The notes under the pieces are model-generated. The model did not search any database and was not told the DNA's origin. It was given only the letters and a program-made list of their open reading frames with translations. Position numbers and translations under genes: made by a program. 64,000 nt of DNA, taken from Tepidanaerobacter acetatoxydans Re1 (GTDB taxonomy: Bacteria > Bacillota > Thermosediminibacteria > Thermosediminibacterales > Tepidanaerobacteraceae). Position 1 is the first letter of the stretch. Each line of letters opens with the position of its first letter. The stretch spans positions 1,656,516 through 1,720,515 of the forward strand of contig NC_019954.2 of NCBI RefSeq assembly GCF_000328765.2, in the 5' to 3' direction. Of this stretch, positions 47,362 to 58,669 are shown piece after piece.

Positions 47362-48507
47362 TTATTTTAGCCAATTCCAAGGGTTGACTACTTCTCCATC
47401 TTTGATTACTCCAAAATGAAGGTGTGGTCCCGTAGACCATCCGGTACTGCCAACCAAGCCAATTTTATCACCCTTGAGTACTTTTTTGCCTTCTGCTACA
47501 AGCAGTTTCGAAAGATGAGAATACTGCGTAGAAATACCTCCACCATGGCTAACAATGATTGTATTGCCATAACCTCCATAAGAGCCTGAAAAAATTACCT
47601 CACCATCATCTGCTGCCAGCACATCAGCTCCCATAGAAGCACCTATATCTATGCCTTCATGAAACCGCCGTGTTTTAAAGATAGGATGCGTCCTCCATCC
47701 AAACTCTGAAGTAATATATGTTGAACTTGGCGTCGGCCAAAGGAATTCCCCTGTTCCAAAAAAGCCTTTTTGGTTCTTCATTTCCCATTCAAGAATTTGC
47801 CGGCGTAGATTCTCCGAATCTTTTTGCAGCTTATCCTCTTGACGCTCATACTCTTTTTTCTGTTTTTCCAGCTCTGCCATGAGTCTTTGGCGATCTCCGC
47901 GATATGAAACTATGCTGGCTCGACGAGCATCTATATCATCGCGCTGCTGAGCTATGATCCTTTGTTGTTCTTCCAATTCTGCTTTTTTCTTTGCTACTTC
48001 TTCCTGTCTTGCTTTAAATTCCATAAGGAGATTTTTATCAGACTCAATGATACGTTTAACTAAATCAAGTCTTGTCAAGAAATCTGAAAAACTGGAAGAC
48101 GCCAAAATTACCTCTATGTAATCTACCGGCCCAGTTTTGTAAAGAGTTCGCATGCGGACATTTAGATCATCTTTTTGTTCTTCTACCTGTTGTTCGGCTT
48201 GTTTAAGCTCTTCTATAGTATTTACTAATTTCGTCTGATTTTCTCTGAGCTTGGCTTCTGTTTCAGCCAGTTCTTTTTGCGCCAAGTTCAATTTTTCTTC
48301 AAGCTCTGCCAATTCTTCACTTATATCCTTCTTATTCGCTTCAACTTTATTTATATTGTTTCTTAAATTTTTTATTTGATTGCTTAAATCTTGCTGCTGC
48401 TTTTTTAAATCATCGATACCGCCTAATGCCGCCGGAGCAGTTGCCGTTAAAATAATAGCCAACAGCAAGATGCTTGTAATTACTTTGTGTTTTTTCCAAC
48501 TCATCAC
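47362..48507 (-). CDS. M23 (LytM) peptidoglycan peptidase with coiled coil, EnvC-like
   Basis: A 381-residue secreted protein. A signal peptide (about 1-30) is followed by a long coiled coil (about 32-250, many E/K/Q heptads such as LAELEEKLNLAQKEL) and a LytM domain (about 265-380). The zinc ligands are in RRFHEGIDIGA and TGPHLHFGVI. Coiled-coil M23 proteins beside ftsEX are typically the hydrolases or hydrolase activators switched by FtsEX. All LytM zinc residues appear present, so it should be active rather than a pure activator. The start is GTG 48507 (GGAG at 9 nt) or ATG 48504. Confidence 0.92.
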   Translation of the reverse strand: MMSWKKHKVITSILLLAIILTATAPAALGGIDDLKKQQQDLSNQIKNLRNNINKVEANKKDISEELAELEEKLNLAQKELAETEAKLRENQTKLVNTIEELKQAEQQVEEQKDDLNVRMRTLYKTGPVDYIEVILASSSFSDFLTRLDLVKRIIESDKNLLMEFKARQEEVAKKKAELEEQQRIIAQQRDDIDARRASIVSYRGDRQRLMAELEKQKKEYERQEDKLQKDSENLRRQILEWEMKNQKGFFGTGEFLWPTPSSTYITSEFGWRTHPIFKTRRFHEGIDIGASMGADVLAADDGEVIFSGSYGGYGNTIIVSHGGGISTQYSHLSKLLVAEGKKVLKGDKIGLVGSTGWSTGPHLHFGVIKDGEVVNPWNWLK

Positions 48508-48530
48508 CTTTTTTCACTCCTTATATAATG

Positions 48531-49403
48531 CTAAACATTTAAAAATCTCTTTATGGAAAAGCTACTGCCAAATGCCCCGATGAACATACCAATACCTAAA
48601 AATCCAAAGGCATAGTTATAAAACTGTTCTATCGGCAGCAAAGAAATCATAGGAATATTTAGCTTCACCGTTACATAAAGATATTTGTAAGCTATTCCCA
48701 AAATTGCTACAGCCAGCGAAGAACCGATTAATCCCAATACCATACCTTCTATCAAAAACGGCCAGCGTACAAACCAGTCAGTGGCACCAATATATTTCAT
48801 AATATTTATCTCCCGCCGCCGTGCAAAAACCGTAAGTCTGATGGTATTAGAGATAATAAAAATTGAAACTGCGGCAAAAACTACCATTATCGCCAAGCCA
48901 ATAATCCGAACCCAATAAATTATGTTGAACAGTTTTTCAACAATGCCTTTGCCGTATTTGACTTCATCAACACCGGAAAATTTTTCAATTTTTTCAGCAA
49001 CCAAAGCCACTTCATGAGGGTCGTTTACCTTAATCCGGAAGGAATTGGGAAGTGGGTTTTCAATACCCTCCAATAAATCTTCTCCTACTTGCTCTTTGAA
49101 TTCTTCCAGAGCCATTTCCTTTGAAATAAATTCTACTTCTTTTATCCCGGAAATAGCAGCAAAATCCTTTTTTAGTTGAGATATCCTTTCTTGTCCCAAG
49201 GAGTCTTCAAGGTAAGCCGTAATCTCTACTTGTGATTCCACATCTTTTAAAACATGATCAAAATTTACCGAAAGTAATAAAAAAGAGCCTAGAATGATGA
49301 GTGCAGATGCTACCGCTCCAATGGATGCGAGACTCATCCATCTGTTTCTTACAAGACTGGTGAAGGATTCTTTGAAAAAATATTTGATGGTCCTAAGTCT
49401 CAT
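48531..49403 (-). CDS. ftsX: Cell division ABC transporter permease
   Basis: A 290-residue four-helix membrane protein. One helix (about 22-45) is followed by a ~120-residue extracellular loop (VEITAYLEDSLGQERISQL ... GIENPLPNSFRIKV). Three C-terminal helices follow, with NTIRLTVFARRREINIMKYIGATDWFVRWPFLIEG, the conserved FtsX/MacB-type coupling segment. FtsX with FtsE couples ATP hydrolysis to control of extracellular peptidoglycan hydrolases; the M23 gene that follows is the likely partner. The start overlaps ftsE by 11 nt. Confidence 0.96.
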   Translation of the reverse strand: MRLRTIKYFFKESFTSLVRNRWMSLASIGAVASALIILGSFLLLSVNFDHVLKDVESQVEITAYLEDSLGQERISQLKKDFAAISGIKEVEFISKEMALEEFKEQVGEDLLEGIENPLPNSFRIKVNDPHEVALVAEKIEKFSGVDEVKYGKGIVEKLFNIIYWVRIIGLAIMVVFAAVSIFIISNTIRLTVFARRREINIMKYIGATDWFVRWPFLIEGMVLGLIGSSLAVAILGIAYKYLYVTVKLNIPMISLLPIEQFYNYAFGFLGIGMFIGAFGSSFSIKRFLNV

Positions 49404-50079
49404 TACTGTATACCCCTCTCTCCTCGTCTCTTACTAGACTGCCTTTTTCGAGCTGAATTACTCTTTTTTTCATAGAATCTACCAATTCTCGGGCATGCGA
49501 GGCAACAACCAATGTAGTCCCCCGCTTATTGATATCATCTAGCAAATTCATGATATCCCTAGATGTATCCGGGTCAAGGTTACCGGTAGGTTCATCGGCT
49601 ACGAGGACATCGGGATTATTTACCAGAGCACGAGCAAGTGCGACTCGTTGTTGTTCACCTCCGGAAAGTTCTGAAGGTTTTGCCTTGGCTTTGTGAGCTA
49701 AGCCTACTCTTTCAAGAACATATGGCACTCTTTTCCTTATATCTCTGCCGGGGGCTTCCACCACTTCCATTGCAAAAGCTATATTCTCATAAACGGTTTT
49801 TTCCGGCAGCAGTCTAAAATCTTGAAAAACAATACCAATACGCCGCCTTAGGTAAGGTATTTCTTTCGGCCTTAATCTGGTAATGTTTTTTCCGGCGAAA
49901 AATATCTGTCCCCTTGTCGGAAGTTCTTCTCTGAATAAAAGCTTAATCAATGTCGATTTTCCTGCCCCGCTGGGTCCGACAATAAATACAAACTCTCCCT
50001 TTAATATCTTTAGACTAATATCTTTAAGGGCGACTTGACCGCCCGGATAAATCTTAGTAACCCCATACATTTCAATCAA
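49393..50079 (-). CDS. ftsE: Cell division ATP-binding protein
   Basis: A 228-residue ABC ATPase with Walker [11 protein letters not shown]-loop [16 protein letters not shown], signature [15 protein letters not shown], and Walker [14 protein letters not shown] place the start at TTG 50079 ([14 protein letters not shown]), which follows GGAG by 7 nt and gives the usual FtsE length; the frame opens earlier at ATG 50100. It heads the unit ftsE-ftsX-M23-ctpA-minJ-like. The 260 bp upstream hold no other gene. Confidence 0.96.
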
Positions 50080-50366
50080 ACTGCTCACTCCAAATTCCAT
50101 TTAGTTACATATATTTTTAACTTCGACATCAATACCGAAAATCCTTCATTAAATACATTTAAAAATATGTAATTTCCTAAACTTCGTCGACATTATCAAA
50201 TATATCATTAAATATTATCATTCTCAACATTTATATATCATTTTCAGACAAGTTAGGGCGGCATAAGAGGTTTAAGCAATCAATTTTTCTCCTTTTTCAT
50301 AAAAAACGATATACTTCCCACATAACGGAAAAAATGAATTGTGTTATAAAATTAAGAATTAAGGGG

Positions 50367-50689: not shown

Positions 50690-50744
50690 ATGTGAGCAAT
50701 TGATATTTGCCTAATTTAAAATTATTTTGGAGGTTGTATATCTT

Positions 50745-52103
50745 ATGGAAACTAAGACAAGAGAAAATTGGTCCTCAAAAGCCGGTTTCATTCTAGCTGC
50801 TGCAGGTTCGGCCATAGGTTTGGGTAATATATGGAAATTCCCTTATAGTGTGGGTACTAACGGTGGCGGAGCATATGTTGCAGTATACCTTTTGTTTTTA
50901 GTGCTCATCGGAACTCCCCTTATGCTGGCTGCCATCACTCTTGGCAGGAAGACCCAGCTTTCGGTTTTCGGTGCATATAAAAGCATAGATAAGCGTTGGT
51001 CATTTGTGGGCTTTCTCGCTGTAATTTGCGGTTTTGTCATACTGGCCTTTTATTCTTCCGTTGGCGGTTGGGTTTTGTATTACTTTAAAAACGCTGTTAC
51101 GGGAAATCTTAATACAAAAGATCCCCAAGTTCTTGCCGGTATTTTTTCCAATATGATGAACTCTCCTGCAACCTTAATAGTTTACCAGTTAATCTTTATG
51201 GCACTTACTATGCTTATAGTAATAAACGGCATTAAAAAAGGAATTGAAGTCACTTCTAAAGTAATGATGCCCGGTCTCTTTATACTTCTTATAATTATAG
51301 CTATTAGGAGTGTAACATTGGAGGGAAGTATGGAGGGAATTAAATTCTTGCTGGTTCCTGATTTCTCTAAGATTACCCTTGAAGTAGCTAAAAACGCCAT
51401 GGCGCAAGTGTTCTTCTCTCTCAGCATAGGCATGGGGGTCATGATAACCTACGGAAGTTATTTGGATAAGGAAGTTAATTTGCTAAGCACAGCGGTGTCG
51501 ATCCCCGCTTTGGACACATTGGCTGCGTTGATAGCCGGATTTGCCACTATCCCGGCGGTTTTTGCCTTAGGCTTTGAAGTTGGAGAAGGGCCCGGACTTA
51601 TGTTTATCACACTGCCTGCAGTTTTTGCATCGATGCCTTTAGGGCAAATCTTTTGCATTGCCTTTTTTCTGATGGTTACTTTTGCAGCATTGACTTCTTC
51701 AATGTCTATGTTGGAAATCAGCGTTTCTTATTTTGTGGATGAACTGAAAAAGGACAGGAAAAAATCTACATTGGCAGTAGGGATTGTAATATTTCTAATG
51801 GGAATACCCGCTTCCCTTTCCCTGGTTCAAGGCAGCAGTTTCTATATAGGAAGTTTGAGCTTTTTTGATATATATGACAAACTGTCTTCCAATATACTCC
51901 TAACCACCGGTGCATTTTTGCTTTCCATTTTCGTGGCTTGGATACTTACCACCAAAGAAGCCGTGAAAGAAATAGAGCTTTCAGGAATCCGCTTTAAGTT
52001 AGCCCCCGTCTGGAGCTTCTTAGTAAAGTATGTGGTTCCGGTAGGCGTATTTATTATATTATTTAATTCCTATAAGGATTTTATAATTGCTCTGCTTAAT
52101 TGA
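50745..52103 (+). CDS. Sodium- and neurotransmitter-symporter (SNF) family transporter
   Basis: A 452-residue membrane protein with about eleven to twelve helices. The N-terminal family signature is WSSKAGFILAAAGSAIGLGN followed by IWKFPY, the sodium-site region of LeuT-type transporters. Bacterial members import amino acids such as tryptophan, tyrosine or leucine together with Na+. Control by a T-box means import rises when one aminoacyl-tRNA runs short. With a trp T-box in the same window, an aromatic amino acid is plausible but not shown. ATG 50745 has GGAGG 11 nt upstream; the frame opens at TTG 50727 inside that site. Confidence 0.93.
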   Translation: METKTRENWSSKAGFILAAAGSAIGLGNIWKFPYSVGTNGGGAYVAVYLLFLVLIGTPLMLAAITLGRKTQLSVFGAYKSIDKRWSFVGFLAVICGFVILAFYSSVGGWVLYYFKNAVTGNLNTKDPQVLAGIFSNMMNSPATLIVYQLIFMALTMLIVINGIKKGIEVTSKVMMPGLFILLIIIAIRSVTLEGSMEGIKFLLVPDFSKITLEVAKNAMAQVFFSLSIGMGVMITYGSYLDKEVNLLSTAVSIPALDTLAALIAGFATIPAVFALGFEVGEGPGLMFITLPAVFASMPLGQIFCIAFFLMVTFAALTSSMSMLEISVSYFVDELKKDRKKSTLAVGIVIFLMGIPASLSLVQGSSFYIGSLSFFDIYDKLSSNILLTTGAFLLSIFVAWILTTKEAVKEIELSGIRFKLAPVWSFLVKYVVPVGVFIILFNSYKDFIIALLN

Positions 52104-52218
52104 TGGCATAAACGGCAGCAATACCTCTAGATAAAATACCCTAAATATGGTAAAATGATTATCAGCTTGAACCTCCATCAAGTGAAGATGACTTAATTCC
52201 ATAATATATTTTAACAAC

Positions 52219-52263
52219 AACCCCCACCTCCACTATATAGCATCAATAAAAGAGGTGGGGGTT
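52219..52263 (-). terminator. Terminator between the SNF transporter and the glycan cluster
   Basis: AACCCCCACCTC (52219-52230) pairs with GAGGTGGGGGTT (52252-52263), a 12-bp GC-rich stem directly behind the minus-strand gene stop. T-runs are weak, but it can serve both converging units. Confidence 0.75.
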
Positions 52264-52268
52264 AATAT

Positions 52269-55200
52269 TCATCTGCGATTATCTATTCTTTCTCTTACTT
52301 GTGCTGGAATCATGTCGCCGACAGTACCTGTGGCAAGGCAAATATAAGTATCTGCAGCACCGTAATATACTAAAATTTCATCATCTATGTCAAGAATTTC
52401 TTTATCTTCGGCTGCAACGGCACCGCAAGTAAACACCACATTCGGCACCCAACACTTATCTTTTTCCCCTACCTCACACTTGGTTTCAGGCGATAGTGTG
52501 GGGTTGGGCGACCTGTATAGAAGTCGGCCGGGGTCTTTTAGGTCAGCCAACATCACTCCCAACCTATACACCATGTCCTTATCCACACCGTGGTATATAA
52601 GCAGCCAACCATAACGTGTTTTTATAGGTTGTGCACCGGCTCCTATTTTCAGAGAGTCCCACATCATGCCGGACCGCGGTCCCATTATTATCTTGTGACC
52701 GTCACGAGGCCACGGAAAGGACAGTTTCGGGGAATATGCAATCCATATGCTTGGTTCAATACGATGATATATGACATACTTGCCATTGATTTTTTCAGGA
52801 AACAATATGGCATCTTTATCCCATAGTCCGGGAAAAGCCAGCCCTCTTCTTTTCCAGCAGTTATATTTTCTGTTGAGAAAATCATCTATGGTAATTGATG
52901 CCGCTGCTATCTGAGCTACCACACCGTCATATGCGGTATAAAGCATGAAAATTTCATCATCAATTATGACGGTTCTTGGATCTTCGCAACCTTTTTTCTC
53001 TTCTTCCATCTCCGGAGAAAATATAGGTTCTTTTAGTCTTTCAATTATTCTATAACCATCAGAAATAGCAAGACCAATTCGCGAAATCTCATCTTCACCA
53101 AATGCTCTATATAGCAGGTATACCTTATCTTTTATCCTTAGTGACGCCGTATTGAGCACAAAACGATTTTCCCACCAGTGCTCATTTATAGGCTTAAGTA
53201 TCGGCACTTCGCTATAACGCTTTAAAACCTCTGCCTTAGGCCAATAATCCAATTCTTGAATTATTACTTGTTCCCGATGTTGTTTTACTCCTAATAACGC
53301 CTTTGCTAAATCTATGCTTTCACGGCCTTGACTTATATATTGAAATACTTGCTGTAAGATTTCTTCAGAATCATATCCCATTTCCTTATATATTTCTTCA
53401 AGCAAATCGTGATTGAACCAATCCCTTTCCACATGTAGGAAAAGCGGTGTAGGTATGCCATCTCCACCTTTAAAGCTGAAACTGGCCCAAGTCCATGCGG
53501 AACATGGTATAAACGTCCCATCGTTTAATACCATGCTGAGGCCATACCCTTTGACCATAATATCAATATTTTTTGCATCTGTTTCATTATTCTCCTTGCG
53601 AAGATTATCCGCAATTACTTGTAATTTTGAAACCAACACCCTATGATGCCAGTTTTCAAAAATATGATGTGCAGAAAATACAGCCTTTCCATAATGGCCT
53701 AGAATAGAATTAACAAATTTTCTACCCACTTCCTTCCGTTCCCTTGTATAGGTCTTCCATAGGTCTGAAAAATGCTCGGCTTCAACTATACTCTTTGCTA
53801 TGCGTGTAAAATACCACAACTTAGGATAGTTGCCACCCATTCCCTTGCCTAAGTTCATAACAGGTATATATGCTGTCAAACGATTTAAATCAGATATTTC
53901 ACGCAGTTCACTGGAACCATGAAAATCATTACGATTTACCACCATTGGAAGTATTTCTACTTCTTCAAAACTATCGGGTCTTAAATTGTCCTTAAGCCAG
54001 TAAAATATTCGATCAAAATAATCCTTGTCCTCAGTAAACGAAGCCAATGTGAGAATCTTTCGTTCATTCATATTGTCAAGGAGTTCTCTCAAGTTTCTAA
54101 AGCCCATTCTTAAAATTAAATTCCCTGGAGGATATTCATATAATAATTTCCTCAGTATTTCCCATTTTACCGCTATGACTTTGCTATGTGGAATAATATT
54201 AAATATGCTTTTTACTACGTCATTGGTACCTTCCAAGCTGTATAAATTTCCCGGGCACAAGCTATCGATAGTGTTTTCCAAATCTGCCATGAAATCGGTT
54301 AAGCACCGGCAAATATCTTCAGAAGACGCATTATTATGGATACTTAAAGTCTCTAGAAAGGATGTAAAGGCATTATTATATTTTTTCTGAAGTCTTTTAA
54401 AAACTTTACTGGTAATAGCTTCGCAACGATTCTTTCCTATAAGTTTTTTAGGCAACACAATTGGAACCCCTGGAATAAACTCGAGGTAATCCAGTGGAGT
54501 AAGCACTGGACTTGTTTCCTCTAACTTTTGACGCCAATTATCCGAAAATTGAGATTTGTTATTCATGAAAGCATTTACGGTATTTTTATAAATTGCTTCA
54601 GTCTGAGCTAAAACAACAGTATCGATATCCACATTCAAATCACTTAAACCTTCGTTTGCGTTCATGATTTCTAGTATCAGCGCTGCCAGCATTCCTTTAT
54701 ATATAGCTATCAGAGCTTCCAAAAGGTCTTCCTGCGGTATTTCCGAATTAAAATTATAAGCAACTATAAACTCATAAACTGCTTGTGACCAGATTTCTGG
54801 TGAGTAAATTACATTGTCTTTCGATATCGTCATGAATTCAATATAACTAAGCACCTTTTTACTTAGTATTTTTTGCAATAGATTACCATAACAACAAGTT
54901 CCTTTAATAAAAGAGTCTAAAAGCTCCTCATGGTTATAAACAATTTTTAGTGGTACATCCTTAAATTCACTGCCGTACATATCAGGAGTTTTTATAATTT
55001 GAAAATCTTCCAACCAAATATCCTCATCCCGTATTATACATTCAAACAGTGATTTAAGCATTTCTTTTGCAGCGATATATTTTTTGTCAGAGGAAATTAA
55101 GGAAATTTTTGTCCAAAGATTTACCTCACATATCCTTTTACTCCATTTTAATGCTGTTGTAATAAGCCATGGGTTAATACCATATCCGCCTAGATATTCT

Positions 55201-55805
55201 CTGTTTTGATCGAATTCAGAGCAGAACTCTTCAACGAGATCGTGCGTAATAGCGGCAACTCCGCTGAAAGGATCGCTAAATTTAGTTTTATAAAGAGCTG
55301 TCATAAGCGGTAAAACTAATATCTTGTCAATAATATTTTCAAGCGTATATCGTCTAAAGCAGGCAACCGATATATCATAATCTCCAAAGATAGGATCTGC
55401 CGCACAATCCACCCAATCGTGCTTTAGCTCTTGCTCGCTTTGACTTTTTAAGTCTGTTTCCAGAAGTATCACATCTGACTTAAAAAGACGAGCAATCTCC
55501 AAAATGAGCCTTATACCAAAACCTCGGCCATTGACACCCGACGGCAGTGAAAAACCTGCTATTTCGTTTCCGAATCTTTCCCTGATATTTTTTATCGTTT
55601 CGACGTCTGTTGGACCACCGACACAAACAATCAGCTTTTGACCTTTTGTTTTTAAACTGTTCTTGGCAACTGTTATAATATTTCCCAAGGCATCTTTTTC
55701 ATCATTAAAAGGGATACCTATTATAATGTCAATATTTTTTACTGATTTAAGTTCTGCTTTTGCCCGGTCAACAGTTTCTTTAAAAAGTATTTCAATGTGC
55801 CCCAA
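52269..55805 (-). CDS. Large two-enzyme protein: glycosyltransferase-like N-terminus and GH130 phosphorylase-like C-terminus
   Basis: 1178 residues, starting at TTG 55805 (GGAGG at 7 nt). The first ~230 residues have a GT-A look: IDIIIGIPFNDEKDALGNIITVA, then LIVCVGGP, then ILLETDLKSQ where a DxD-type metal site would sit, and FSDPFSGVAAI. This resembles glucosyl-3-phosphoglycerate or mannosylglycerate synthases. A ~600-residue middle part has no domain I recognise. The last ~300 residues are a GH130 beta-fan: NRFVLNTASLR, LLYRAFGEDE, GCEDPRTVII, LLYRSPNPTLSPE and EILVYYGAADTYICLATG. GH130 members are mostly beta-mannoside phosphorylases, including beta-1,2-mannosides in thermophilic Clostridia. 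Synthesis or turnover of a mannoside is my inference. Confidence 0.8.
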   Translation of the reverse strand: MGHIEILFKETVDRAKAELKSVKNIDIIIGIPFNDEKDALGNIITVAKNSLKTKGQKLIVCVGGPTDVETIKNIRERFGNEIAGFSLPSGVNGRGFGIRLILEIARLFKSDVILLETDLKSQSEQELKHDWVDCAADPIFGDYDISVACFRRYTLENIIDKILVLPLMTALYKTKFSDPFSGVAAITHDLVEEFCSEFDQNREYLGGYGINPWLITTALKWSKRICEVNLWTKISLISSDKKYIAAKEMLKSLFECIIRDEDIWLEDFQIIKTPDMYGSEFKDVPLKIVYNHEELLDSFIKGTCCYGNLLQKILSKKVLSYIEFMTISKDNVIYSPEIWSQAVYEFIVAYNFNSEIPQEDLLEALIAIYKGMLAALILEIMNANEGLSDLNVDIDTVVLAQTEAIYKNTVNAFMNNKSQFSDNWRQKLEETSPVLTPLDYLEFIPGVPIVLPKKLIGKNRCEAITSKVFKRLQKKYNNAFTSFLETLSIHNNASSEDICRCLTDFMADLENTIDSLCPGNLYSLEGTNDVVKSIFNIIPHSKVIAVKWEILRKLLYEYPPGNLILRMGFRNLRELLDNMNERKILTLASFTEDKDYFDRIFYWLKDNLRPDSFEEVEILPMVVNRNDFHGSSELREISDLNRLTAYIPVMNLGKGMGGNYPKLWYFTRIAKSIVEAEHFSDLWKTYTRERKEVGRKFVNSILGHYGKAVFSAHHIFENWHHRVLVSKLQVIADNLRKENNETDAKNIDIMVKGYGLSMVLNDGTFIPCSAWTWASFSFKGGDGIPTPLFLHVERDWFNHDLLEEIYKEMGYDSEEILQQVFQYISQGRESIDLAKALLGVKQHREQVIIQELDYWPKAEVLKRYSEVPILKPINEHWWENRFVLNTASLRIKDKVYLLYRAFGEDEISRIGLAISDGYRIIERLKEPIFSPEMEEEKKGCEDPRTVIIDDEIFMLYTAYDGVVAQIAAASITIDDFLNRKYNCWKRRGLAFPGLWDKDAILFPEKINGKYVIYHRIEPSIWIAYSPKLSFPWPRDGHKIIMGPRSGMMWDSLKIGAGAQPIKTRYGWLLIYHGVDKDMVYRLGVMLADLKDPGRLLYRSPNPTLSPETKCEVGEKDKCWVPNVVFTCGAVAAEDKEILDIDDEILVYYGAADTYICLATGTVGDMIPAQVRERIDNRR

Positions 55806-55816
55806 CAAAGCCCCTC

Positions 55817-56839
55817 CTATACTGCTGGAATTAATATCCTTTGTTTTTTTTCTTTGATGTTCTGTAAAACTTGGTGTGCCATTAAAAATGAGATGACAGC
55901 CTCTGCACCTTGATTCAAGTTAACTCCATGTGGAACAAGAGCATCATGACAGCCTTGGGTTTTCTCATTGTATAAGGGAAGGTTATTGAGATTTTTTCCC
56001 CAGTACCAATCATATGCTAGTTGAGCCATTTCTATATATTCTCTTTCACCCGTAACCACAAACGCCTGTAGACAAGCAAGAGCTATAGACGCCGCATCTA
56101 CCGGTTGTTGGTCATAAGGCGGTATTTGACTTTTTCTAATCCACCACCCCTGATTACCAACAATATTCAGATATCCTTTCTTAAATAAAGAATCTGTAAG
56201 GAAATTCAGTGTAATCTTAGCTACTTTTAAAGCCTTTACATCTTTGCTCACTACATAAAAGCCAAATAATGCATGGGGCAGCAGTGCATTGCAGTACGTA
56301 AGTCTGTCCTCAAACCAATGCCAATCTTTACAGCGATTTGCATCGTAAAGTTTTATGAGTTTATATGCAATATACTTTGCATATGGCAAGAGGCTTATCC
56401 TTTCTAATGAATCTATAAGTTTCGCCATGCCTAACAATGTATAAGACATGGCTCTTGGAGAATTGGTGTCTATGGCTTTTGGCAGCACCTTTTTTAACAT
56501 CTTACAGGCAGTGTCCTTTGTTTCGGGTATATCGCAGTCCGCTGCAAAACTTGCCGCAAGTATACCTCGACCTATACTATCTTCTGAATTAATCGATGTA
56601 TAATATTTTCCGTGAACTTTTAAATTTTGCCATGTGCCGTCCGGCATTTGAGCTTCTTGTAAAAAACTTATAAAAGTTTTTATGAGTCTTTTGCGCTCCA
56701 GTTCCTCCATCCCTATTGCCACTACCAGTGCCCGAGCATTATCATCTACTGTATAACCGCTTTCGGCTAATGGATTTGATATATCGGAAAACTGAATAAT
56801 CCCTGTTGAGTCGGTCATGTGTTTAAAATGCTTATACAT
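55817..56839 (-). CDS. Alpha/alpha-barrel (six-hairpin) carbohydrate-active protein
   Basis: A 340-residue cytoplasmic protein. Repeated helix pairs with small-turn motifs are visible: YTVDDNARALVV, DGTWQNLKV, GRGILAASFAA, DWHWFEDRLTYCNALLPHAL, and DQQPVDAASIALACLQAFVVTGE. This is the pattern of (alpha/alpha)6 glycosidase-like or epimerase-like proteins that accompany GT4 enzymes. Acidic residues in VDDN and WFEDR could be catalytic. ATG 56839 has GGAAGG at 9 nt and lies 1 nt behind the GT4 stop, so the two are coupled. No reaction can be assigned. Confidence 0.7.
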   Translation of the reverse strand: MYKHFKHMTDSTGIIQFSDISNPLAESGYTVDDNARALVVAIGMEELERKRLIKTFISFLQEAQMPDGTWQNLKVHGKYYTSINSEDSIGRGILAASFAADCDIPETKDTACKMLKKVLPKAIDTNSPRAMSYTLLGMAKLIDSLERISLLPYAKYIAYKLIKLYDANRCKDWHWFEDRLTYCNALLPHALFGFYVVSKDVKALKVAKITLNFLTDSLFKKGYLNIVGNQGWWIRKSQIPPYDQQPVDAASIALACLQAFVVTGEREYIEMAQLAYDWYWGKNLNNLPLYNEKTQGCHDALVPHGVNLNQGAEAVISFLMAHQVLQNIKEKKQRILIPAV

Positions 56840-56840
56840 T

Positions 56841-57992
56841 TTAAAACACCTTCCTTTCAACCTCTGTCTGCATGATATTTTCTATTATACTTACATATCT
56901 TTTGCCTACTTGAGGCCATGTCATGGTTTTACCCAATTTACCAGCCTTTTCTTCCAGATTTTCTTTTAATTGATGGTCGGATAAGATTTTATCTATCAAT
57001 GATGCCAATTCTTCCGGATTGGCATCATTAGCTATAAGGCCTCTACCGTCCGCAAGAACTTCCAGAGCATAATCATATGGAGTGGAAACTATAGCCCTAC
57101 CACAGCCTACAGCATAGGAAAGGGTTCCGCTTACAGCCTGATTACGATGCGGATAAGGGGTGAGATAAACATCAGCCATATAGAGTACTTCTCCCAGTTC
57201 TTTAATGCTGAGGTATTTATTGATAAATCTTATGTTATTATCAACTTCCAAGGCTTGTATTAACTCAACAAGAGAATCTCTATAAGCTTCTCCCATCTTT
57301 TTTCTTAGATTTGGATGTGTTTCTCCCGCTACCAAATAAATAATATCGGGATATTTTTCTTTTAAGAAAGAAATAGCTTTAATTCCCAATTCAATACCTT
57401 TACCGGGACCTAAAAAACCGAAAGTAACTACTAAAGGACGATCCTCGACCCCATATATTCTTTTAGTTTCATCTCTTGGTTTTTCTTCAAATATCGGTAC
57501 TCCATGATGGACCATATAAAGTTTATTAAGAGGTATATTATATACTTTGTTTAGCAGTTCTGAAGAACGGTGGGTCATGCATATAACGGCCATTGATTTT
57601 TGTCCCAATGTTGATAGTATTCTTCGCTTATGAAAGTCCGGTGACGGCAGAACTGTATGAGTATTTAGGATAAATGGTTTTTCCAGGTTTTCGATAAAAT
57701 CCAATACAAAAGCACCGTTATTGCCGCCAAAAATTCCATATTCATGTTCTACAAAGACCAAGTCTATCTTTGCAGTATTGACAAATTCGGCTGCAATCAC
57801 ATACTGATCCCTATTATCCTCTTCTAAGTCAAAAACTACTTCCGGCGGATAATTATAATAACCATTTTTGTCACTAATGGCAAGAATTGACACTTGCTCA
57901 CCACATAGCATGAGATTGTTTCTAAGGTCCTTTGCAAAAGAGGCTATTCCGCACTCTCTCGGAAAGTAGGTGGATAATATAGCAATATTCAT
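56841..57992 (-). CDS. GT4-family glycosyltransferase
   Basis: A 383-residue GT-B enzyme. The N-terminal domain starts MNIAILSTYFPRECGIASFAKDL (acceptor side). The C-terminal domain has VTFGFLGPGKGIELGIKA, ADVYLTPYPHRNQAVSGTLSYAVGCGRAIV (the E/S-containing sugar-nucleotide site) and ends in a helix. ATG 57992, 8 nt behind AAGGAG, is chosen over ATG 57998, which is only 2 nt away. It opens the three-gene glycan unit and presumably uses a sugar nucleotide such as GDP-mannose or UDP-glucose; the donor is not readable. Confidence 0.88.
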   Translation of the reverse strand: MNIAILSTYFPRECGIASFAKDLRNNLMLCGEQVSILAISDKNGYYNYPPEVVFDLEEDNRDQYVIAAEFVNTAKIDLVFVEHEYGIFGGNNGAFVLDFIENLEKPFILNTHTVLPSPDFHKRRILSTLGQKSMAVICMTHRSSELLNKVYNIPLNKLYMVHHGVPIFEEKPRDETKRIYGVEDRPLVVTFGFLGPGKGIELGIKAISFLKEKYPDIIYLVAGETHPNLRKKMGEAYRDSLVELIQALEVDNNIRFINKYLSIKELGEVLYMADVYLTPYPHRNQAVSGTLSYAVGCGRAIVSTPYDYALEVLADGRGLIANDANPEELASLIDKILSDHQLKENLEEKAGKLGKTMTWPQVGKRYVSIIENIMQTEVERKVF

Positions 57993-58160
57993 GTACATTT
58001 CTCCTTAATATATTTATATAATCGTAAATTTATATCATGACTTTGTTTCGATTTTATTAAAAACGCTTCGGTAAAATAGTATATCCATCATACGCCTGTT
58101 ATACACTAATATTATTGTAAATTTGCCATTATATTATCCATAGTTATTTTTTTTGCATAA

Positions 58161-58192: not shown

Positions 58193-58669
58193 TTACAGTT
58201 TTACTCTTTCAGCATTCAATTCTTTTATAAACTCGCCTATATCAATAGTAAAAGTTCCTCTGCCTGACCAATCTGTTTTAACATCGGGTCTGTTTAATGG
58301 GATATTTAGTTCTTTTTTGTCAGAAAATATTTTTAGCAAAACATCTTGAACCATGATTCCCGGATCAAGCCAAATATTAGTTTCTATAATGAGTTTAATA
58401 TCATCCTCCGGATCTATAAACAAAAAATTCATAGGCAAAGCCGGATCTGCCTCAAAAATTCTTCCCATTAAATAATTACTGTCATAATGTCTTTTTCTTC
58501 CTAAAGCAGCTAGTCTTTTCCCTCCGAGAATCATTCCAAAAAATTCATAAACATCCTCAGAACAGCTTTCTTCAATTATTTTACCATTGTACATAACCTT
58601 TAAATTTACAAAACTGTTATCCGTAACGCTCAAACCTCTTTGAAGATACAGTTCAATTGCTACCTGCAT
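58193..58669 (-). CDS. Hypothetical protein
   Basis: A 158-residue soluble protein with MQVAIELYLQRG at the start, an acidic middle (LFIDPEDDIKLIIETNIWLDPG) and no cysteines in a metal pattern or membrane helices. ATG 58669 is preceded by GGAAGGGGGC and the gene ends at a hairpin, which supports it as real. I do not recognise the family. The beta-rich alternation in KVMYNGKIIEE and GTFTIDIGEF suggests a compact beta fold, but no function can be offered. Confidence 0.7.
   Translation of the reverse strand: MQVAIELYLQRGLSVTDNSFVNLKVMYNGKIIEESCSEDVYEFFGMILGGKRLAALGRKRHYDSNYLMGRIFEADPALPMNFLFIDPEDDIKLIIETNIWLDPGIMVQDVLLKIFSDKKELNIPLNRPDVKTDWSGRGTFTIDIGEFIKELNAERVKL

Follow-up and report, generated by a model that had tools for sequence, protein, structure and literature searches.

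Known GH130 enzymes are small, stand-alone and mostly catabolic proteins, and the hydrolases among them carry a pair of Glu residues in place of the basic residues of the phosphate site. The phosphorylases Teth514_1788 and Teth514_1789 act on 1,2-β-oligomannan with mannose 1-phosphate; the mannose site of Teth514_1789 contains Asn28, Asp98 and Asp287, and a cluster of Thermoanaerobacter sp. X-514 holds genes for a hypothetical protein, a GT4 glycosyltransferase, mannose-1-phosphate guanylyltransferase (GMP) and two GH130 proteins in a row (PMC4264767). In Leishmania, β-1,2-mannan (mannogen) is built and recovered via mannose 1-phosphate by the GT108 system (PMC8950772). CGS joins a GT84 front, a GH189 glycan-editing middle and a C-terminal GH94 phosphorylase that adjusts chain length (PMC10834661). 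In mannosylglycerate synthase (MGS, GT78) and glucosyl-3-phosphoglycerate synthase (GpgS, GT81), the metal ligands are a His and the final Asp of a DXD motif (PMC2581804).

The DNA analyzed was a 64,000-nucleotide stretch of the Tepidanaerobacter acetatoxydans Re1 genome, referred to below as the window. Three close, co-directional genes on its minus strand (52269–57998) encode a GT4-family glycosyltransferase, an α/α-type protein and a giant protein ending in a GH130 domain (Table 1). An earlier note on this DNA had described such a three-gene unit, and its open reading frames were indeed found there and are conserved in relatives. The giant has its start codon at TTG 55808 or TTG 55805, with AGGAGG ahead (1179 or 1178 aa, respectively), and translation of the α/α protein most likely begins at ATG 56839, immediately past the GT4 stop as in its homologues. 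The GC-rich hairpin that follows the giant sits before a convergent SLC6-type transporter gene (50727–52103) and may terminate transcription on both strands. On the other side of the unit, positions 58193–58669 encode a 158-aa protein that gave no Pfam or NCBIfam match; four Tepidanaerobacteraceae loci conserve it immediately upstream of GT4. The host genome carries another complete copy of the unit at 2.25 Mb (L021:4422-10369), with about 50% identity; it adjoins ribosomal protein genes, and its GT4 and α/α genes lie on the opposite strand, convergent with the giant. An apparent internal TAA in the own-genome giant paralogue was rejected, the reading frame being intact at 1189 aa.

Table 1. 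Features of the three-gene unit and of the giant protein (positions in the window)
Feature	Position	Strand	Remarks
GT4-family glycosyltransferase, first gene	56841..57998	-	385 aa; Pfam Glycos_transf_1 67.2 bits (cut-off 26.4)
α/α-type protein, second gene	55817..56839	-	340 aa; distant PDB profile matches
Giant protein, third gene	52269..55808	-	1178-1179 aa, TTG start; full-length family
Giant residues 24-236, GT-A core, MGS/GpgS-like	55101..55739	-	Foldseek and bridging homologue
Giant residues 237-430, helical C-terminal part of GT-like region	54519..55100	-	MGS structural match and stand-alone homologues
Giant residues 431-858, middle domain, candidate new fold	53235..54518	-	AlphaFold; no PDB, Pfam or NCBIfam match
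Giant residues 862-1165, intact GH130 phosphorylase domain	52314..53225	-	Pfam, Foldseek, residues
Terminator-like hairpin directly 3' of giant stop	52217..52264	-	MFE -30.1 kcal/mol vs shuffles -13.3 ± 3.0, z -5.6

To our reading of the open-access literature, the giant fusion has no published description. Sixty-one genomes were sampled first. Most of those from the same order, and some scattered Bacillota outside it, carry a full-length giant, which is kept end to end in 27 relatives; this full-length conservation argues that the fusion did not arise by chance. A species-level genome collection was then scanned with giant residues 8–856, which gave 177 loci, of which 80 were kept. The three regions of the giant occur in identical order in every intact copy of this set, and identities within the full-length family are 37–93%. 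Sixty-two intact homologues were aligned, and all residue counts for the giant below refer to these; they come mostly from syntrophic and thermophilic Bacillota, with a few metagenome-assembled genomes (MAGs) from other phyla. Giant loci belong mainly to the Tepidanaerobacteraceae, Thermosediminibacteraceae, Syntrophomonadaceae, Peptococcaceae and Desulfotomaculaceae, a few giant-bearing MAGs are labelled Dehalococcoidales, Deltaproteobacteria or Actinobacteria, and the nearest named relatives are from Tepidanaerobacter. AlphaFold prediction of the whole giant with the 62 homologues reached a pLDDT of 86.5 and a pTM of 0.80.

Judged by its sequence, the GH130 domain of the giant is intact and closest to characterized β-1,2-mannoside phosphorylases. 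The Pfam match is strong (175.6 bits against a cut-off of 26; E = 1.6e-51), and the best Foldseek match is the five-bladed propeller of Teth514_1788 (9fj8; E = 3.3e-25, TM 0.87 to the target). N886, D943 and D1153, the counterparts of the three mannose-site residues of Teth514_1789, are invariant in 62 of 62 giants, as are E942, which precedes D943, and R1016, K1054 and H1073. The last three are common to both characterized phosphorylases in the alignments and are presumably the basic ligands of the phosphate site. The phosphorylase-like end proposed by the earlier note thus holds, the catalytic acid (Asp943) being retained throughout. The score against the NCBIfam model for β-1,2-mannobiose phosphorylase (250 bits) falls below the curated equivalog cut-off (450), and the domain is therefore not filed under that activity; its substrate could differ. 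The Thermoanaerobacter cluster shares the GH130 fold and key residues and has GT4 and GMP alongside, but its GH130 proteins are stand-alone (~300 aa) and accompanied by ABC transporter genes, whereas here the domain is the tail of a 1179-aa chain. Leishmania GT108 has a related propeller fold but is eukaryotic, belongs to another family and is without the front and middle regions.

Residues 1–430 form one region, with an MGS-like GT-A fold and the helical C-terminal part typical of such enzymes. Foldseek aligned this front to MGS (2bo7/2y4j) over about 415 columns (E about 1e-11, TM 0.70–0.72 to the target), and with the whole giant as query MGS was the first class unrelated to GH130, fitting the N-terminal ~420 residues. 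Stand-alone homologues of 413–437 aa align to giant residues 7–399, and one of these matches GpgS (PDB 7pdo, E = 4e-8; NCBIfam, 7.8e-13), which provides a sequence link to that family. The first profile matches had indicated a GT2 domain of the dolichol-phosphate-mannose type; this assignment was rejected because the bridging homologue and the structure favor GpgS/MGS. A GT-A-like front had been expected from the earlier note, and Foldseek found the GT-A fold in the predicted structure.

The metal site of this front is weakened in comparison with MGS and GpgS. At the DXD position the window giant reads E117-T-D119 (ETD); other giants may begin the motif with Ala, Ser or another residue instead of Glu, no common variant has Asp there, and none of the 62 has the metal-binding His at the aligned position. 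D119 itself is replaced in 19 of the 62, essentially within the Syntrophomonadaceae and where the alignment has no gaps; these proteins form one branch of the front-end tree, so the loss may have been a single event. Stand-alone homologues retain both DSD and the His. Invariant positions number 5 of 213 in the GT-A core as against 89 of 304 in the GH130 domain. The hallmarks of GT78/GT81 are therefore found in part: the fold with its C-terminal extension is present, whereas the Asp-X-Asp motif and the metal His are not. Because the His is missing and D119 has been lost in the Syntrophomonas clade, where activity is evidently dispensable, the front is GT-like in fold and of doubtful transferase activity; D119 is nevertheless kept in the window protein and in most relatives outside Syntrophomonas, and there the front may still be a working transferase. 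The suggestion that a transferase and a phosphorylase share one chain thus stands for the GT-A fold and the intact GH130 domain, but is weakened on the side of the front.

Between these two parts lies a domain (residues 431–858) that AlphaFold predicted with high confidence when given alone (pLDDT 90.0, pTM 0.90). Foldseek gave nothing below E = 0.1 against the PDB (best E = 0.29, probability 0.04) and a best E of 0.49 against BFVD viral models. Profile searches of Pfam, NCBIfam and the PDB gave no match either, the Pfam and NCBIfam scores across the 62 members being at chance level, and hhalign found no relation to the α/α family. Searches of ~800 genomes, from Bacillota and the phyla to which L101 and L108 belong, did not find the domain on its own; every match was full-length or cut by a contig end. 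The predicted structure is therefore a candidate new fold, new relative to the PDB. The earlier note had left some 600 residues unassigned: ~190 of them belong to the GT-like part, while ~430 make up this separate domain, which is new by PDB, Pfam and NCBIfam as had been surmised.

The front and middle regions are not confined to GH130. In three distant relatives (L142:9282-13268, L143:1811-5818 and L145:294-4238), they are fused to the trehalose synthase/phosphorylase TreT, a GT4 enzyme, which takes the place of the GH130 domain of the window protein (PDB 2x6q, E = 2e-69; NCBIfam, up to 2e-114), and the giant of L142 adjoins another TreT and an OtsA–OtsB fusion. TreT and GH130 forms are split on one branch of the front-end tree (support 91/86). 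Since the same front and middle occur on two reversible disaccharide enzymes, they form a portable module, and the TreT fusions show that this module is not tied to mannose. The middle domain has 22 invariant positions, and E443, E593, N700, S712, E718, Y755, W774, E794 and W797 are shared even with the TreT-type relatives. That polar and aromatic residues are kept across a change of C-terminal enzyme suggests a real binding or active site in the middle domain.

Both partner genes are conserved with the giant. The GT4 protein scores above the Pfam cut-off, in line with the earlier assignment, and lacks EX7E, the classical GT4 motif: the expected first Glu is replaced by Q287, which is invariant in 61 of 61 homologues. 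The SGT that follows Gln287 is likewise invariant or nearly so among these. The second protein, which gave no Pfam or NCBIfam match, had been called an α/α-barrel protein; it is a conserved and coupled gene, but the fold call comes from distant profile matches only (family profile against PDB 7tem, YPO2471, E = 1.9e-13; GH76-type structures weakly, E = 0.006–0.009). D32-D33 is invariant in this family, and in several relatives the protein is fused to GT4. Among 299 Bacillota, the α/α gene was present in 32 of 37 giant-bearing and 34 of 262 other genomes (Fisher p = 1.4e-19, uncorrected for kinship). Genomes without the giant keep GT4 and the α/α gene together, often with GMP or phosphomannomutase (PMM); in several of them (L129, L130, L135) a stand-alone GH130 gene lies beside the pair, and in L128 the α/α gene, GT4 and a nucleotidyltransferase gene stand in a row. 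We infer that the hypothetical protein of the Thermoanaerobacter cluster belongs to the α/α family.

Gene context was counted at the 35 giant loci that are flanked on each side by over 5 kb of sequence. GT4 was present at 29 and the α/α gene at 28, GMP and PMM at 22 each, and at least one GDP-mannose gene at 24, which upholds the mannose chemistry surmised by the earlier note. Giant loci also contain genes for mannose-6-phosphate isomerase, a GT4–isomerase–cupin fusion and stand-alone GH130. In the genus of the window, the GDP-mannose genes are not adjacent to the unit, GMP lying about 1.1 Mb away.

Our preferred explanation, to which we would give about an even chance, is that the unit runs a cytoplasmic cycle of β-mannoside synthesis and recovery in which GH130 returns mannose 1-phosphate. 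GDP-mannose would be supplied by mannose-6-phosphate isomerase, PMM and GMP; GT4 and its α/α partner would build or edit the glycan; and the GH130 domain would reversibly phosphorolyze its β-mannosidic end or, running backwards, extend it. The mannose 1-phosphate released could re-enter GDP-mannose synthesis without ATP cost. The front module, MGS-like GT-A part and new-fold domain together, would hold or recognize the acceptor, the middle domain possibly having a second activity of its own, and the GT-A part is likely more a binding or scaffolding piece than a required transferase. The substrate is most likely a β-1,2-linked oligomannoside or a conjugate capped by one. Counted in favor of this cycle were the invariance of the GH130 residues while the GT-A metal site is not kept, the action of the closest structural relatives, Teth514_1788 and Teth514_1789, on 1,2-β-oligomannan, the GT4, α/α and GDP-mannose genes at the well-flanked loci, the co-occurrence of the α/α gene with the giant, the swap to TreT, and the finding that other Bacillota pair the GT4, α/α and GMP/PMM set with a stand-alone GH130. 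Counted against it were the distance of the GDP-mannose genes in the genus of the window, the NCBIfam score below the cut-off, the retention of D119 in most giants outside Syntrophomonas, and the TreT fusions, which are not tied to mannose. What can be said most safely is that the unit handles β-mannosides, probably β-1,2-linked, that GH130 is its conserved engine, and that GDP-mannose is the currency paired with it.

Other explanations give the front a larger or a smaller part. The order of a transferase-like front, a middle domain and a C-terminal inverting phosphorylase is that of CGS, and by this analogy the front could be a working synthase transferase, as the GT-A fold, the GDP-mannose neighbors and the conserved Glu and Trp residues of the middle domain would allow. 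All three parts nevertheless belong to other families than in CGS (GT78/81-like, no-match and GH130), the middle domain has no GH189-like Foldseek match, all 62 giants are missing the metal His, and the Syntrophomonas clade has lost the DXD Asp as well; we consider such a synthase unlikely. It is less probable again that the giant is a compatible-solute enzyme, with a front making a mannosyl- or glucosylglycerate-type core to which GH130 adds, or from which it recovers, mannose. The nearest fold of the front is MGS, the GpgS-matching stand-alone homologue has a gene for an MGH1-like hydrolase (mannosyl/glucosylglycerate) only a few genes away, and a TreT-fused relative sits beside trehalose genes, but giant loci did not repeatedly show a phosphoglycerate phosphatase or glycerate gene and the catalytic site of the front is weakened. 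We are just as skeptical that front and middle are merely a carbohydrate-binding or regulatory platform on a plain GH130 enzyme salvaging cell-envelope mannosides. The far denser invariance of the GH130 domain and the existence of gene sets with stand-alone GH130 fit such a platform; the invariant positions of the middle domain, several of them polar and kept across the GH130/TreT split, are more than a passive linker needs.

Returning to the β-mannoside cycle, we tentatively entertain a bolder form of it, in which front and middle are a new-fold glycan-handling head, interchangeable on GH130 and TreT, that drives a bacterial counterpart of the mannogen cycle in syntrophic Bacillota. The conserved 1180-residue GH130 form is widespread in energy-limited syntrophs (Syntrophomonas, Pelotomaculum, Tepidanaerobacter), and the giant, GDP-mannose synthesis and the two partner genes point to an endogenous mannoside pool, possibly a reserve, an envelope coat or a solute, of a kind for which no report was found in the open-access literature. 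For a first structure the obvious choice is the middle domain, whose role could be probed with the two substrate classes that the GH130/TreT swap offers.

Several further observations were made around these loci. Genes at L121:7413-8699, L123:849-2090 and L124:2880-4193 each encode a stand-alone GpgS/MGS-like transferase in which DSD and His are intact; the first lies near genes for a LacI regulator, an ABC sugar transporter and the MGH1-like hydrolase, possibly a glucosyl/mannosylglycerate cluster. A ~400-aa protein without a Pfam or NCBIfam match is encoded between a GT4–cupin fusion and the α/α gene at L055:15004-16230 and at five further loci. In the Tepidanaerobacteraceae and Thermosediminibacteraceae, all seven sufficiently flanked loci have ftsE, ftsX and a gene for an M23 peptidase close to the unit (47362–50100 in the window), a neighborhood not seen at giant loci of other families. 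A gene for an M3 peptidase of the oligopeptidase F type stands immediately upstream of the giant at L102:7987-9819 and at 10 further Syntrophomonadaceae loci, including most of those from Syntrophomonas.
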